A stretch of DNA of 41,705 nucleotides, taken from Ectothiorhodospiraceae bacterium (lineage in GTDB: Bacteria > Pseudomonadota > Gammaproteobacteria > XJ16 > Halofilaceae). Position 1 is the first letter of the stretch. Every line of letters starts with the position of its first letter. Under the pieces are notes generated by a model that saw nothing but the letters and a program-made list of their open reading frames with translations, searched no databases and was not told the DNA's origin. Positions 3,558 to 41,705 of the stretch are shown here, in pieces. The stretch is taken from NCBI GenBank assembly GCA_007134775.1, contig SLKC01000029.1, positions 1 to 41,705 of the forward strand. Direction: 5' to 3'. Both the position numbers and the translations under genes were made by a program.

Positions 3558-5033
3558 ATGGGTTTGCACGAGACCGGCAAGGTGATCTTCGACTACGGCC
3601 GCGAGGGCCGTGCGGCAGGCGCCCAGTTGCCGCCGCCCGCTCCCGAGCCCTCCGATCTGCCCGACACGCTGCGCCGCCGCGGGCGCCCGGCGCTCCCCGA
3701 GGTCTCGGAGCTCCAGGCGGTGCGCCACTATACCCGGCTGTCGCAGAAGAACTTCTCGATCGACACCAACTTCTATCCGCTCGGGTCGTGCACGATGAAG
3801 CACAACCCGCGTGCCTGTAACGCGCTCGCGATGCTGCCACAGTTCTTGGGCCGCCACCCGCTGGCGCCGCCGGGTGCGGGCCAGGGTTTCCTCGCCTGCA
3901 TGCATGAACTCCAGGAAATTCTCGCCGAGGTCACCGGCATGCGCAGGGTGTCGCTCGCACCGGCGGCCGGGGCCCAGGGCGAGTTCGCTGGCGTGTCGAT
4001 GATCCGCGCCTACCACGATGCCCGCGGTGACCACGAGCGCACCGAGATCCTCGTGCCCGATGCCGCCCACGGCACCAATCCCGCCTCCGCGGTCATGTGC
4101 GGCTACCGTGTGCGCGAGCTGCCCACGGACCGCAACGGCGATGTCGACCTCGACGCCTTGCGCGCGGCGGTGGGGCCGCAGACGGCCGGCATCATGCTGA
4201 CGAACCCGTCGACGGTCGGCGTGTTCGAGCGCCATATCAGCGAGATCGCGACCATCGTGCACGATGCCGGTGGTCTGCTCTATTACGACGGCGCCAATCT
4301 GAACGCCATCCTGGGCAAGGTGCGGCCCGGCGACATGGGTTTCGATGTCATCCATCTCAACCTCCACAAGACGTTCTCGACGCCGCACGGCGGTGGCGGG
4401 CCCGGCGCCGGCCCCGTCGGCGTGCGCGAGACGCTGCTGCCCTATTTGCCGATCCCGATCGTCACCCATGAAGGCGGCCGTTACCGCTGGCTGGAGGAGG
4501 CCGACTGCCCCCACTCGATCGGGCGCATGACCGCCTTCGCGGGCAACGCGGGCGTGCTACTGCGCGCGTATGTCTACATCCGTATGCTCGGGCAAGAGGG
4601 GATGGTACGGGTCGGTGAGTACTCGACGCTGAACGCGAACTACCTGATGCACCGGCTGCAGGCGGAGGGGTTCGAGCTGGCCTTCCCCCGGCGCCGCGCG
4701 AGCCATGAGTTCATCGTCACGCTCAAGCGCGAGCACGACGCGTATGGGGGCACCGCGATGGACTTCGCCAAGCGCATGCTCGACTACGGAGTGCATGCGC
4801 CGACGATGTATTTCCCGCTGCTCGTGCCTGAGTGTCTACTGATCGAGCCGACTGAGACGGAAACGCGCGAGGAGATCGACGCCTTCGTCGATATCCTGGT
4901 CGCAATCCGCGAGGAGGCATCGCGGGATCCGGAGATCTTGCACGAGGCACCGCACACCTTGCCGGTACGCCGCCTCGACGAAGTACGGGCGGCCAAGGAG
5001 CTCCATCTGCGCTGGTCGCCCGAGACCGGCTGA
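3558..5033 (+). CDS. gcvPB: Glycine dehydrogenase (decarboxylating) subunit 2, PLP-binding
   Basis: This is the C-terminal half of glycine decarboxylase and carries the cofactor lysine. The 491-residue product has Lys271 in [16 protein letters not shown], the conserved Schiff-base lysine followed by the glycine-rich loop. Other family motifs are [17 protein letters not shown] near residue 58 and [11 protein letters not shown]. The ATG at 3558 is preceded by GGGGAG about 8 nt upstream. It follows gcvPA after a 95-bp gap and appears to be the last gene of the cluster. The next 153 bp to the convergent tetR-type gene hold GC-rich inverted sequence around 5095-5125 but no clear T-tract terminator. 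Confidence 0.97.
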
Positions 5034-5186
5034 AGCTGCGCTTGGGACCGCGACAGGCGCGAATGAACGATTGCGCGTGTCGCGCTGCAGCGCAGCCGCG
5101 GGCCCTTCTCCGGGGGCCGCTCGAGCGCTCCCTGGGCGCTTGGCGTGCTTGGCGCCTCGGCGAGAGTTACCCCTCCCCGCTCAAGT

Positions 5187-35233: not shown

Positions 35234-36210
35234 CCGAATCGAACCGTTACACCTCGCCCTCACGCCTCGATCCCCAGGGCCATCGCCGCGCCCACGACAA
35301 GGTCCGCACGATCCCCGTGAAGGTGGAGGGTGCGCAGCGACCGCAGCGCAAGCCGTCCTGGATCCGCGCGAAGGCGCAGACGAGTCCGCGCGTGCGCGAG
35401 ATCAAGCGCATCCTGCGCGAGAACAACCTGCACTCGGTCTGTGAGGAGGCGGCCTGCCCGAATCTGGGCGAGTGTTTCTCGAAGGGCACCGCGACGTTCA
35501 TGATCCTCGGCGATATCTGCACCCGGCGTTGCCGTTTCTGCGATGTCGCCACGGGCAAGCCGAACCCGGTCGATCCCGAGGAGCCGGCTCACCTGGCGAT
35601 GACGGTGGAGGCGCTCGGCCTCGACTATGTCGTTATTACCTCGGTCGATCGCGACGACCTGCCCGATCGCGGTGCCACCCAGTTCGCCGAATGCATCCGC
35701 GAGATTCGTGCGCGCACGCCGCAGACGAAGATCGAGATCCTCACGCCCGACTTCCGCGGGCGCATGGAGGAGGCCCTCGATATCCTCGACGTCCATCCGC
35801 CCGACGTGTTCAACCACAACGTCGAGACGGTTGAGCGCCTGTACAAGGCCGCGCGGCCGGCTGCCGACTACGCCTGGTCGCTCGATCTGATCGAGGCGTT
35901 CGGTGCCCGCCACCCGGAGATACCGACCAAGTCGGGCCTGATGGTGGGACTCGGCGAAGAGATCGACGAGGTGGAACAGGTCATGCGCGACCTGCGCGCG
36001 CACGACTGCAACATGCTCACCATCGGCCAGTACCTGCAGCCGAGCCCCGCGCATCTGCCCGTCGCCCGTTACGTCCATCCCGACGAATTCGATCGCCTCG
36101 GGCGCATCGGTTACGAGATGGGCTTCGTCCATGTCGCCAGCGGGCCGATGGTGCGCTCGTCGTATCACGCCGACGAACAGGCAGCGGGGGTCCTCGACGT
36201 CGCGGGGTAG
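35230..36210 (+). CDS. lipA: Lipoyl synthase (radical SAM)
   Basis: LipA inserts two sulfur atoms into the octanoyl chain already attached to the lipoyl domain. The 326-residue radical-SAM enzyme has the auxiliary-cluster cysteines in [12 protein letters not shown] and the SAM-cluster motif [49 protein letters not shown] and the C-terminal [16 protein letters not shown] follow, the last carrying the serine cluster ligand. The longer open frame overlapping lipB is not used. A protease gene begins 4 bp beyond its stop. Confidence 0.97.
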
Positions 36211-36214
36211 GGGC

Positions 36215-38842
36215 ATGATCCCGCCCATGCGATCGCCGGCTGCGGCCGGCGGCCGCAGCCGCCGCCGGGGCCTGGCGTTCGCCGCTGCCGGGGCGCTGCT
36301 GCTGGCGACAGCGGCGGCTGCGGGCGAACGCGATCAGCACCCGCGCGCCGCGGCGGCTGAAGGCCGGCTCACCCATGCGGCGCTCAGCCCCGAGCTGTGG
36401 CCGCCCGATCCCGCGGGCGGTCCGATCCCGCAGCGCTTTGCCGAGGAAGTACCCGGGGAATGGCGCGTCGAGGTCCACGTCGAGGCGCTCGATGGCGCGC
36501 TCGTCGAGCGCATCGGACGCCACGCCGAGCGCCTCCTCCACGTCTCCGAACGCCACCGCCGGATCGCCCTCGCCGTGGTCGAGCGCGCGCCCCTGCTCGC
36601 CATCGCCGACCTGCCTGGGGTCATCGCCATCGAGCCGCTCATCGAGCCGGTACGTCGTGCTGGCAGCGTCACCAGTCGCGCCCCGCGCGCCCTGCGGGTC
36701 ACCGACATCGCCCCGGGGTTGCAGCTCGACGGCAGCGGCGAGAAGCTCGGCATCCTCTCGGACAGCTTCGCCCGCACCGAGGCGCTGCGCACTGCGGAGA
36801 CGCAGCCGGCGCCCTGTGCTGTGGCGGACAACGGTGCCCGCGTGGTCACGGGGCTGGCCAATCAGGCGAGCGGTGATCTGCCCGGCGCTGTCGAACTCTT
36901 TGCCGATAACGCCGACGCCGGAGCCTGCCCCGATGCCGGCGGCCTGACCGACGAGGGCGCCGCCATGGGCGAACTCGCCCACGACATCGCGCCGGGTGCG
37001 GACATGGCCTTCCATACCGCCTTCATCAGCCAGGCGAGTTTCGCCGAGGGCTTCGAGACCCTCTGTGCGCCGCGCAGCGAGGGCGGGGCCGGCGCGACGG
37101 TCGTCGTCGACGACGTCATCTTCCCGACCGAGCCGATGTATCAGCCTGGAGTGATCGGTCAGGCCGCCACCGGCTGCGTCGAGGACGGTGTCCCCGTGTT
37201 CTCCGCCGCGGGCAACTCCGGTGGGGCCGGTATCCGTGCTGCCTACGACGAACTCGACCCAACGCGCACGAGTGGCTTCGGCCCGGACTTTCACGACTGG
37301 GGCGATGGCACCGGCCTGTTGCCGATCGAGCTCGATGAGGGGGACAGCTTCCGCGCCGTGCTGCAGTGGAACCAGCCGTGGGCGACGCTCATGCCCTCCG
37401 GGACCAGCCGTGCTCCGCGGATCGATCTCGACCTCTATCTGCTCGATGGCCCCGATCCCGCGCAGGCCCGGATCGTCGCGAGCAGCACGCGCAACCAGCG
37501 CGCCAACAGCGCGGTTCGCGGCCTTGACCCGTGGGAGACCTTCCGCTTCAGCGCCGAGCGCACGGGCACCTACTATCTCGCCGTCGACCATGCCGGCGGC
37601 TCGAAGACCACCATCCCGCAGGCGCCGGATACCCCGCTGGAGCTGCGCTTGGTGCTCTTCGGCGCCGATGAGGCCCGCGTGGGCGGTGAGGTGGTGCCGC
37701 CGGGCCCTGGCGGCCCCACGCTCTACGGCCACTCCGCCGCCGAGGGCGTCATCGCCGTGGGGGCCGTGCCCTGGTGGACCACGCCCGCCTTCGATCCCGG
37801 CGCGCCGGACTCGCCGACCGACGCGATCGATCCGCAGGCCTTCAGCGCCGTCGGTGGTGAACTCCCCCGCCACTTCGACGCGCAGAGCCGCTTCGTCGGT
37901 GAGTACACGCCCTTGCAGCCGCGCATGGCCGCCGTCGACGCGAACAACACCACCTTTTTCGGGAGTGGGGTCCCAACAGAACAGGACGGTGAGCCCGATG
38001 ACTGGCCCAACTTTGCCGGGACATCGGCGGCGGCGACGAACGCTGCAGCCGTTGCGCTGCTGTTGCAGCAGTTCGGCGACGACCTCGCGCCGCTGACCAT
38101 CGAGCGCCTGCTCGCCGACACGGCGCTCGATGTGACCGGCGAGCGCGCGAGCACGGGCCCCGATCCGGTCACGGGCGCCGGCTTGGTCGACGCGCTGGCC
38201 GCGCTCGGGCGCTTTCCCATCGCCATCGCGGGGCGCGACGGCGAGGTCGGTGCCGGTGCGACGCTGACCCTCGACGGCCGTGCCAGCAGTGGCGGGCGCG
38301 ATGCGCTCACGGCCTACCAATGGCGCCAGATCTCGGGGATGTCGGTGACGATCACGGCTGCCGACGAACCCGTGGCTCAGGTCGAGGTGCCGGACGCCCC
38401 CGGTGGCGAGCTCGCCTTCGAGCTGACCGTGAGCGACGACAGCGGGCGCAGCGATCGCGACGAGATGCGCCTGCGCGTGGTCGATCGACCCCTGCCCGGC
38501 GACCGGCCCTCGCTGGGCAGCGGTGACAACGACCACTGTTTCATCGCTACCGCCGCCTACGGCACAGGTTGGTCGCACGAGCTGACCGCCCTGCGCAGCC
38601 TGCGCGACGACTATCTGGCGCTCACGCCCTGGGGGCGTGGCCTCATCGCCGTCTATGAGCGCTTGTCACCGCCCCTCGCCGCGCTGATTGCCCCGCGCCC
38701 CGCGTTGCGCGCGACGGTGCGTACCCTGCTCACTCCCGTCGTTGCCGCTGCCGCTCGGCCACTGGTCAGTAGCGCCGCCGTGCTGGCGTTGCTGCTCGGG
38801 CTGCTCGCCGGGCGAGCGACATGGCGCGCACGCGGGGCTTGA
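36215..38842 (+). CDS. Secreted subtilase/sedolisin-like protease with CFI-box C-terminus
   Basis: This 875-residue exported protein resembles the S8/S53-like peptidases. After a signal peptide (about residues 18-37) and a propeptide-like region, the catalytic domain has Asp183 in LGILSDSF, an oxyanion Asn334 in FSAAGNSGG and Ser604 in AGTSAAAT. The usual His-Gly-Thr-His motif is replaced by [19 protein letters not shown] (Glu247, His256), so the base may be a glutamate as in sedolisins, or His256. A large beta-rich insert (about residues 355-500) separates the Asn and Ser blocks. A PKD-like region (about 670-755) precedes [10 protein letters not shown] (Cys775) and a final hydrophobic helix, the CFI-box-CTERM arrangement. 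It lies 4 bp after lipA. ATG 36227 is an alternative start. Confidence 0.85.
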
Positions 38843-38900: not shown

Positions 38901-39593
38901 ATGACCGGACCGCAGAAGCCCCGCATCGCGCCCTCCATCCTCGCCGCCGACTTCGCCCGCCTGGGTCCCGAAGTGGAAGCCGTGCTCGCCGCCGGCGCGG
39001 ACATGGTCCACTTCGATGTGATGGACAACCACTACGTGCCCAACCTCACCATCGGCCCCCTCGTCTGCGAGGCCCTGCGCCGCTACGGCATCACCGCACC
39101 GATCGACGTCCATCTGATGGTCAAGCCGGTCGACCGCATCATCCCCGACTTCGCCGCCGCCGGGGCCGACTGGATCACCTTCCACCCCGAGGCGAGCGAG
39201 CACATCGACCGCTCCCTCGCCCTCGTGCGCGAGCAGGGCTGTCGCTCCGGGTTGGTCTTCAACCCCGCCACCCCGCTCGACGTCCTGCGCCACGTCATCG
39301 ACAAGGTCGACATGGTCCTGCTCATGTCCGTCAATCCCGGCTTTGGCGGCCAGCAGTTCATTCCGCACACTCTGGAGAAACTGCGCGAGGCGCGCCGGAT
39401 CATCGACGCCAGCGGCCACGCCATCCGCCTGGAGGTCGACGGCGGCATCAAGGCCGACAACATCGGCGCTGTCGCCGCCGCCGGTGCTGATACCTTCGTC
39501 GCCGGCTCCGCCATCTTCGGCCAGGACGACTACGCTGCCGTGATCGCGCAGATGCATCGCGCCATCGCCGAGGGTCAGGGCCGGACCTGCTGA
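38901..39593 (+). CDS. rpe: Ribulose-phosphate 3-epimerase
   Basis: Rpe interconverts ribulose-5-phosphate and xylulose-5-phosphate in the pentose phosphate pathway and the Calvin cycle. The 230-residue TIM barrel has [30 protein letters not shown] with metal ligands, [25 protein letters not shown] and [11 protein letters not shown]. The ATG at 38901 gives the standard start; the open frame from 38688 overlaps the protease gene. It is followed 11 bp later by gph, a very common pairing. Codons in rpe and gph end in C unusually often. Confidence 0.97.
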
Positions 39594-39604: not shown

Positions 39605-40297
39605 ATGTCCGACCTCGCCACTCTGCGCGCCGCCCTGATCGACCTCGACGGTACGCTGGTCGATAGCGCCCCCGAACTCGCTGCCGCCGTCGATGGCATG
39701 CTCACCGAACTCGGCCATCCCCCTGTCGGGGAAGCGCGCGTGCGTGACTGGGTCGGAGGCGGTGTCGGCGTGCTCGTCGAAGAATCCCTACGTTACACGC
39801 TGGGCCGCGCGCCGCGCGACTGCGAGCGCGAGCAGGCGCGCACGCGATTCCGCAGTGCCTACGATGAGCGCGTCGGCCATTCCGGGCCGGTCTACCCGGG
39901 CGTCCCGGCCGGCCTCGAGCGCCTGCGCGGCGACGACCTGCGCCTCGCCTGCGTGACCAACAAGATCCGCCGCTTCACCGTCCCGATGCTCGAACGTCTC
40001 GACCTCGCGCGCTGGTTCGACACCGTCGTCGCCGGCGACGACGCCGATGCCCTCAAGCCCGACCCCGCCCTCCTGCACCTCGCCGCGCACCGCCTCGGCG
40101 TGGACCCCGCCGCCTGCATCATGATCGGCGACTCCCCCATCGACATCGAAGCCGCACGCCGCGCCGGCATGGTGGTCTGGTGCCTGCGCAGCGGTTACGG
40201 CGGCGGCGACCCCATCGACTCCGCCGGCCCCGACGCCGCCTTCGACCGCTTCGACGAACTCGCCGCGGCACTCGTTCACGTCCGTCGCTCGGACTGA
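39605..40297 (+). CDS. gph: Phosphoglycolate phosphatase
   Basis: Gph dephosphorylates 2-phosphoglycolate, made by RuBisCO oxygenation or DNA repair. The 230-residue HAD phosphatase has ALIDLDGTLVDSAPEL with both catalytic aspartates, a helical cap (VRDWVGGGVGVLVEESL), VTNKIRRFTVPML as motif II, DALKPDPALLHLAAHRLG with the lysine, and MIGDSPIDIEAARRAGM as motif IV. In relatives rpe-gph is often followed by trpE; here the following region is an unrelated accessory segment. The last 14 bases before the stop recur 1.2 kb downstream at 41469-41482. Confidence 0.95.
   Translation: MSDLATLRAALIDLDGTLVDSAPELAAAVDGMLTELGHPPVGEARVRDWVGGGVGVLVEESLRYTLGRAPRDCEREQARTRFRSAYDERVGHSGPVYPGVPAGLERLRGDDLRLACVTNKIRRFTVPMLERLDLARWFDTVVAGDDADALKPDPALLHLAAHRLGVDPAACIMIGDSPIDIEAARRAGMVVWCLRSGYGGGDPIDSAGPDAAFDRFDELAAALVHVRRSD
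40283..40296 (+). repeat. Duplicated 14-mer at the gph 3' end, copy 1
   Basis: CGTCGCTCGGACTG occurs here as the last coding bases of gph and again at 41469-41482, after the lipoprotein gene. A second shared word, CCGACATCAA, follows both (40338-40347 and 41504-41513), in the same order. Confidence 0.7.
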
Positions 40298-40359
40298 GAC
40301 CTCGTAGCTTGAGCTCGGCGGCGCCGCCGACCCAATCCCGACATCAATCCGTCGTGGTC

Positions 40360-40509
40360 GTGATCACGATTGCTCAGCGCGTAGCGCCTGCGCGCTAGCG
40401 AGTCCCGCCCTGGGAGCGGTCGTGACCCGAACGATCATCCAGATGTCAGTGGCGTGAGCGCGGATGCGATCGACCCATCGCGCCTCGCGCTCACGGCAAT
40501 CGTGATCAC
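40360..40509. repeat. 150-bp segment with terminal inverted repeats (MITE-like candidate)
   Basis: The left end GTGATCACGATTGC (40360-40373) is a perfect inverted copy of the right end GCAATCGTGATCAC (40496-40509). Allowing a short gap, matching continues inward through AGCGCG-NN-GCGC for a total arm of about 27 bp. Each tip is the palindrome GTGATCAC. No open frame of note lies inside, and no clear target-site duplication flanks it. It could be a miniature transposable element, or a pair of sites for one DNA-binding protein. Confidence 0.5.
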
Positions 40510-40540
40510 TGCGTGCCGATGGCCGATATCGTTCGGCTTT

Positions 40541-40577
40541 GTCAGCGAAGACTGACCCGTTGTCAGCCCTGACTGAC
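40541..40577. promoter_or_regulatory. Two tandem GTCAG-N6-CTGAC dyads, 21 bp apart
   Basis: GTCAG-N6-CTGAC occurs at 40541-40556 and again at 40562-40577. The two copies are offset by exactly 21 bp, two helical turns, so two dimers would sit on the same DNA face. The second dyad overlaps a possible -35 (TTGTCA, 40560-40565). The pattern fits an operator for an unidentified regulator of the gene at 40738. Confidence 0.55.
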
Positions 40578-40618
40578 AAGCACTGTACACATTCGCTGAT
40601 TGTGCGGACGCCCACACC

Positions 40619-40676
40619 GCTGGCACTGTCGCGCAGACCGTCGGGGCCCGGGTGTTGCGGTGAGCGCGAACGGATA
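40619..40676 (+). repeat. Duplicated upstream block, copy 1
   Basis: This block aligns with 41528-41583 with small gaps. Both begin GCTGG, share CTGTCG and AGAC, and end in GTTGCGGTGAGC-N4-ACGGATA with identical spacing. It lies 61 bp before the lipoprotein ATG. Similarity continues weakly to the ribosome site (AGGG-N-GAT) and the start codon of each gene. Confidence 0.7.
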
Positions 40677-40737
40677 GGCGGGCATCGCCGATGCAGTTGA
40701 AGTCGTCGTTGGAATCCATTCGTCAGGGAGATTCACC

Positions 40738-41448
40738 ATGTTCATCACGAAATTACGGACCCGTGGCATCGCGGTTCTTGCCATAGCCGTAGTTGCAAGC
40801 GCTTGCCAATCGATCGATCCGGATCACTCAACGGTGCGCGCCAACGCGCTCGGTTTTGACGGCCATCCGCTCGACGGCTCGTTGGAGGTTGGGGAGGTCT
40901 CACCTCCCGAGTCCACCGAAATGCCGGGATGGGTCTCCGGTGCGCTGACCCAGGAGCAGGCCCACAAGGCGCTGACGCAGTCGCTGGCGGGACAGGGCCT
41001 GCTGGCGCGCAACGAGGCCGATGTCCAGTATCTTCTCGACGTCGATTTCCACCAGGAGCGCTACCGTGCAGGGGTGGCGGAACCTCGTGCCGGCGTGGCG
41101 GTCGCGTACAGGCTCACCGATCGTGACGACGGCGAGACGCTGGACGTCAAGCCCGTCAAGGCCATCTATTCAGGTCATCTCAATGTGCGTTCCATCGGTC
41201 GCATCGACGTCGATGACCAGGAACTGTTGACGGCACCACTGTTTGAGGCAGAGGGCCGCCACCACCTCGGCGCCGAATACGTCGACATAGACCCCTTGTT
41301 TGATCGGCGTCTTGCCTATCCGCAAGGTGGTACGCCCTATCACACCACCGGCGACGATCGTCGCATCATCACACGGGAGGGCGCGCTTCGCGCGGCGATT
41401 GCCGAGTACCTCGAGTATCTCCGGCTCGATTTCGACGCGGTAGAGTGA
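40738..41448 (+). CDS. Unrecognised lipoprotein
   Basis: This 236-residue protein starts with a signal peptide and a probable lipobox, VASACQ, with Cys23 as the lipidated residue, so it should be a cell-envelope lipoprotein. The mature part is acidic. It has a helix (LTQEQAHKALTQSLAGQGLL), an alternating strand region (ADVQYLLDVDF, AGVAVAYRLTDRDDGETL) and a final helix (REGALRAAIAEYLEYLRLDF), suggesting a compact alpha/beta domain. No family is recognised. Base composition is visibly lower in GC than gph and rpe. The ATG has CAGGGAGA upstream. An upstream block and a following exported gene suggest it is one member of a tandem paralog set. Confidence 0.8.
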   Translation: MFITKLRTRGIAVLAIAVVASACQSIDPDHSTVRANALGFDGHPLDGSLEVGEVSPPESTEMPGWVSGALTQEQAHKALTQSLAGQGLLARNEADVQYLLDVDFHQERYRAGVAEPRAGVAVAYRLTDRDDGETLDVKPVKAIYSGHLNVRSIGRIDVDDQELLTAPLFEAEGRHHLGAEYVDIDPLFDRRLAYPQGGTPYHTTGDDRRIITREGALRAAIAEYLEYLRLDFDAVE

Positions 41449-41468
41449 TCCCACCGCGCACGCCTCCT

Positions 41469-41482
41469 CGTCGCTCGGACTG
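41469..41482 (+). repeat. Duplicated 14-mer from the gph 3' end, copy 2
   Basis: This is the same 14 bases as 40283-40296, here in non-coding DNA 21 bp after the lipoprotein stop. It is followed by CCGACATCAA at 41504-41513. In copy 1 about 270 extra bases separate that word from the next shared block; here only 14 do. Confidence 0.7.
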
Positions 41483-41527
41483 GAGGCCCTCCGCGCCCGA
41501 AGTCCGACATCAACACCCTCGGCGCAT

Positions 41528-41583
41528 GCTGGGCTGTCGTTGAAGACATCGGAGTGCGGGGTTGCGGTGAGCAACTACGGATA
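41528..41583 (+). repeat. Duplicated upstream block, copy 2
   Basis: This is the counterpart of 40619-40676, ending in GTTGCGGTGAGC-N4-ACGGATA (41561-41583). It lies 41 bp before the preferred start of the truncated exported-protein gene. Confidence 0.7.
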
Positions 41584-41624
41584 TACGGACATTACAGATG
41601 GACTTTCAGAAGAGGGTGATGCCC

Positions 41625-41705
41625 ATGTCGACGATCCTTGCAAGGCGAACGATCGATCTCGTTCTCATGATGGCGCTGGCGGGCTTGCTCGGCAGCGTCC
41701 CGGCC
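41625..41705 (+). CDS. Exported protein, N-terminal fragment
   Basis: Only the first 27 codons are in the window. MSTILARRTIDLVLMMALAG and the following LLGSVPA form a signal peptide, so the product is exported; no lipobox is seen before the end. In-frame ATGs also occur at 41598 and 41619. The ATG at 41625 is preferred because GAGGG lies 8 nt upstream. In addition, the sequence AGGG-N-GAT before it lines up with the ribosome site of the lipoprotein gene at 40738, while 41598 aligns with non-coding bases there. Its upstream region is a partial copy of that of the lipoprotein gene, so a related function or regulation is likely. Confidence 0.55.
   Translation, partial: MSTILARRTIDLVLMMALAGLLGSVPA

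Follow-up and report, generated by a model that had tools for sequence, protein, structure and literature searches.

Clusters of orphan genes at bacterial synteny breakpoints are the closest described counterpart of the region downstream of gph that is analysed here. Their hallmarks are unclassified genes for exported proteins with a lower G+C content than the neighbouring DNA, absence from congeners and a broken gene order. All of these are found at this locus and nothing differs in principle; here, two members of the cluster retain a short repeat in their leaders. Two other known processes leave similar traces. As in a tandem gene duplication, intergenic words are repeated locally, directly and collinearly, but the match is confined to the leader segments, and the gene bodies show no visible homology over the 29 codons of gene 2. 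The locus also resembles a site-specific integration at the 3' end of a gene, with duplication of the att site, in that a foreign-looking gene is flanked by direct repeats of the gph 3' end, 1186 bp apart. The tail of gph is, however, not conserved in the congeners, so integration did not restore an old gene end here. The 1.4 kb before the contig end contain no integrase or transposase gene.

The locus was found in a draft gammaproteobacterial assembly of 3.06 Mb in 201 contigs with 1.35% contamination; its assignment to the class relies on the named sequences that gph matches. The window, that is, the whole stretch of 41,705 nucleotides that was analysed, spans an entire contig (C8), which ends at position 41705. 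Downstream of gph follow, in this order, a first intergenic region of 440 bp (IG1), gene 1, a second intergenic region of 170 bp (IG2) and gene 2, of which the contig contains the initial 29 codons. The G+C content drops from about 0.72 in gph to 0.62-0.63 from IG1 onward (0.62 in gene 1), and GC3 is 0.86 in gph versus 0.71 in gene 1. The features are:

38901-39593, plus strand: rpe, ribulose-phosphate 3-epimerase (Pfam PF00834, E = 2e-88; start ATG at or near 38901)
39605-40297, plus strand: gph, phosphoglycolate phosphatase-like HAD hydrolase (Pfam PF13419, E = 2e-29; orthologues in relatives); its stop codon is TGA at 40295-40297
40283-40296, plus strand: 14-mer CGTCGCTCGGACTG, first copy, at the end of gph
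40338-40347, plus strand: 10-mer CCGACATCAA, first copy, exact sequence match
40360-40509, plus strand: hairpin-forming segment of 150 bp with perfect 14-bp inverted arms GTGATCACGATTGC (40360-40373 and 40496-40509; DNA fold z = -3.25)
40541-40577, plus strand: two operator-like palindromes GTCAG-N6-CTGAC, recognized by sequence (40541-40556 and 40562-40577)
40639-40691, plus strand: leader block, first copy (core 40654-40676; 39 of 53 positions identical with the second copy)
40738-41448, plus strand: gene 1, a predicted lipoprotein of 236 amino acids with a signal peptide and a cysteine in the lipobox-like VVASAC
41469-41482, plus strand: 14-mer CGTCGCTCGGACTG, second copy, intergenic, 20 bp past the stop of gene 1
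41504-41513, plus strand: 10-mer CCGACATCAA, second copy, exact sequence match
41548-41600, plus strand: leader block, second copy (core 41561-41583)
41619-41705, plus strand: gene 2 (29 codons, truncated by the contig end; alternative start 41625), which encodes an exported protein

In related bacteria, gph is normally followed by trpE, as the first-pass annotation had stated. The two genes are adjacent in 25 of the 27 loci from relatives, including both congeners, in which trpE lies about 180-350 bp 3' of gph, and in 46 of the best 80 named gammaproteobacterial gph loci (gaps below 400 bp). Here, trpE is found on another contig (C149), behind yhdP'-nitrilase-tldD-pmbA (genes named by sequence resemblance) and directly after pmbA. 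In both congeners pmbA adjoins DUF3108-purN-purM, which in the present genome is located on contig C9 beside a type I secretion-like locus. The idea that the 3' side of gph is an insertion site therefore falls short: since trpE sits behind pmbA, and pmbA precedes DUF3108-purN-purM in the congeners, the 3' side of gph is a rearrangement breakpoint and not a simple insertion, with several borders rearranged. A reciprocal exchange of the gph-trpE and pmbA-DUF3108 borders was considered and rejected; DUF3108 is on C9, away from the orphans next to gph, so the order cannot be accounted for by one exchange.

On C149, trpE keeps a trp promoter-like sequence, CTTGAC...TTTAATG, and a leader region. Short leader frames that end with Arg-Arg-Trp(-Trp)-Arg plus a few residues and a stop are present at 4985-5106 of locus L044 and upstream of trpE at the congeneric loci L034 and L035. 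Judged from their sequence, these frames after CTTGAC...TTTAATG are possible trp leader peptides, kept though trpE moved. Several other observations were made at these loci. Between pmbA and trpE lies a self-complementary repeat, CACGAAAGGCACGAAAAGCACGAAA / TTTCGTG...CCTTTCGTG (L044, 4815-4920). In the congeners, a gene for a GxxExxY-type protein is found just after trpE (L034, 4888-5277; L035, 7829-8299). The type I secretion-like locus (L054, 8469-14707), with a peptidase/ABC exporter, an HlyD-like adaptor and a methyltransferase, adjoins DUF3108-purN-purM and occupies the place of pmbA in the congeners. All three members of the genus have a gene for a subtilase-like protein close to rpe (36131-38842 in the window; L034, 9697-11985; L035, 2719-5187); the proteins of the window and of L034 resemble each other, and that of L035 differs and is encoded between rpe and gph.

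The three words that the first-pass annotation had seen before genes 1 and 2 are all present, in the same order and on the same strand. Their extent had to be corrected in part. The 14-mer, described as the last 14 bases of gph, has the correct coordinates but corresponds to the last 15 bases of the gene minus the final A. The third word, a block of about 57 bp, is real and has a shared core, GTTGCGGTGAGC-N4-ACGGATA, but its left edges had been placed too far out (40619 and 41528) and the copies can be aligned only from 40639 and 41548. Over this length, 39 of 53 positions (74%) are identical, with one gap. The block is the best-kept part of the repeat and, of all direct repeats in the window that lie no more than 3 kb apart, the longest; its core ends 35-61 bp upstream of both start codons. 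The ribosome sites, said to align, bear only a weak likeness (AGGGAGATTCACCATG versus AGGGTGATG-CCCATG) that was matched by 56 of 2000 shuffles, and their alignment relies on the ATG at 41625, with 41619 being a possible start as well.

Outside the three words, the unit is not continuously similar: upstream of the 14-mer and in the spacers, including that which links the 10-mer to the block, the alignment stays at the level of shuffles, and neither the 14-mer nor the 10-mer has alignable flanks. The spacing from the 10-mer to the block core is 316 bp in IG1 and 57 bp in IG2. IG1 is about 260 bp longer than IG2 between these two words. This stretch, absent from IG2, includes the hairpin-forming segment, whose arms enclose 122 bp and which occurs once in the genome; from its sequence it may be a hairpin or a small inverted-repeat element. 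The two 16-bp palindromes before gene 1 are arranged in tandem with a spacing of 21 bp (two helical turns); no further exact copy occurs in the window or in those contigs of the genome that were sampled.

The 14-mer encodes the final residues RRSD of the gph product, within the tail VHVRRSD. A comparison of the C termini revealed that both congeners lack this tail. What is repeated is therefore no conserved end of gph, and this weakens the case for a duplication that copied gph sequence into the array. The 14-mer may be part of the accessory sequence and have taken the place of the original end of gph; equally, gph could now end in accessory DNA. In 60 columns at 75% identity, 14 consecutive identical positions are expected with a probability of 21%, and the 14-mer is thus compatible with a copy that has diverged moderately.

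To score the likeness of IG1 and IG2, ungapped matches were chained, and pairs shuffled with preservation of dinucleotides served as the null. The chained score was 17.5, as compared to a maximum of 13 for the shuffles; none of 60,000 reached it, and the collinear direct repeat is beyond chance. When the 14-mer or the block was left out, the remaining words were reached by 1 of 30,000 shuffles. When compared with real, unlinked intergenic DNA of the same genome (about 28 kb), IG1 scored at most 10 and IG2 at most 7. Among random pairs of real intergenic regions, 5 of 29,707 scored at least 17.5, and the four highest of those listed derive from one same-contig repeat (L059). A control with all DNA, coding sequence included, was of no help, since 170 of 20,000 pairs equalled or exceeded the score, probably owing to repeat-rich coding sequence, and the intergenic-only control was used instead. 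Even when it is taken into account that each window holds some tens of adjacent intergenic pairs, the likeness is beyond chance.

The 14-mer and the block are not scattered through the genome; a scattered occurrence would have spoken against a duplication. With up to one mismatch, the 14-mer is found at the two known places of the 3.06-Mb assembly and nowhere else. The block core (up to three mismatches) gave the two known places and one match on contig C124. This match was rejected as a third leader; it lies at the three-mismatch limit and is not listed by a sequence profile built from both leaders, which found no third leader in the whole assembly up to E = 10. A slightly looser core pattern had no match in one congener (G001) and one two-mismatch match in the other (G002), not more than the reversed control. 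A promoter motif of a regulon was thus dismissed, as just two adjacent copies are present in the genome; a local duplication would restrict the 14-mer and the leader profile to this pair, as observed, but a regulon motif would not.

Searches of Pfam, NCBIfam, PHROGs and the PDB gave no match for gene 1, and no relative was found in 55 related genomes, plasmids, viral contigs or named genomes. Among 369 genomes of the class there was a single match of 56 amino acids, which was discarded as spurious; it contains a stop and the genes of the locus are unrelated. In its own assembly, gene 1 finds itself alone. A single-sequence AlphaFold2 model was too poor for use (mean pLDDT 37). A reading frame of this length was seen in 19 of 2000 shuffled regions (about 1%), and because such a frame is rare by chance and is accompanied by a ribosome site and a signal peptide, gene 1 is probably a real gene. 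Gene 2 begins with a hydrophobic, signal-like stretch; its visible part gave no family. The 29 visible residues score against gene 1 at the mean of shuffles. At the DNA level, the first 120 bp of gene 1 have a weak likeness to gene 2 that was reached by 42 of 2000 codon shuffles.

These data are probably best explained by an old, local duplication of a leader within an accessory region that lies at the breakpoint and holds orphan genes for exported proteins. A chromosomal rearrangement would have separated gph from trpE, with accessory orphan genes for exported proteins at the breakpoint. The leader of about 60 bp before gene 1, possibly together with the two short words, would have been duplicated locally long ago to a place before gene 2, and the likeness of the leaders would then reflect common descent. 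The better preservation of the block may be due to a transcription start or another DNA control element that it carries for both genes, and the extra 260 bp with the hairpin and the two palindromes may be a gain on the side of gene 1 or a loss on that of gene 2. We would best describe the repeat as a leader duplication whose copies lost or gained sequence unequally. What counts against this explanation is the patchiness of the likeness, with spacers that cannot be aligned and unlike protein starts, and the presence of just two copies of the repeat. In addition, a search for a promoter-like site in the region was negative, and the leader RNAs of both copies exhibit no compensatory change and are not more stable than shuffles; Rfam gave nothing relevant.

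The first-pass annotation had proposed the tandem duplication of a whole gene unit, in an array that may continue. The local repeat is real, but a true duplication of leader plus gene with bodies that have since diverged, which would make gene 2 a paralogue of gene 1, is rather unlikely. Word order and orientation are kept, both genes encode exported proteins and the first 120 bp have the weak DNA likeness mentioned above. On the other hand, the visible parts of the proteins are unlike, the exact words lie amid unalignable stretches and the spacing between the 10-mer and the block core is unequal. Moreover, no paralogue of gene 1 exists in the assembly; together with the lack of a third leader, this also leaves the continuing array without a further member.

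The position of the block core close to both start codons and its better preservation would also fit a binding or promoter site that was kept or gained by selection, with no duplication at all and with the other words being coincidental. Such a shared control element seems distinctly unlikely, as no third copy of core or leader is found genome-wide and the other words are beyond chance even without the block (1 of 30,000 shuffles).

We consider it still less probable that a false join placed the final 1.4 kb of the contig behind gph. The site is at a contig end of a draft assembly with some contamination, and the G+C content steps down at the gph stop; but trpE on C149 is also not beside gph, so that the break is seen twice, and gph ends in frame with its own stop codon. 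Very little weight is given to the idea that the leader is a reused 5' cassette, in which a recombining segment would keep promoter and leader while the bodies of exported proteins are swapped behind it, making the 3' side of gph a site of diversification for secreted orphans in this lineage. A chance likeness is hardly credible: the best block alone is expected about once over every pair of places in the window (rough scaling; BLAST E-value 8e-5), but three collinear words in adjacent intergenic regions were not produced by any shuffle.

With the leader duplication at a breakpoint as the preferred reading, the locus looks like ordinary genome drift and not like a new system. It is of little importance beyond its lineage and adds another break of the common gph-trpE order, in which the trp promoter and leader followed trpE intact to a different neighbour. 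It also adds two orphan genes for secreted proteins with a common leader. If the full gene 2 should turn out to be unrelated to gene 1 behind a homologous leader, the pair would be a small example of leader reuse and body replacement.
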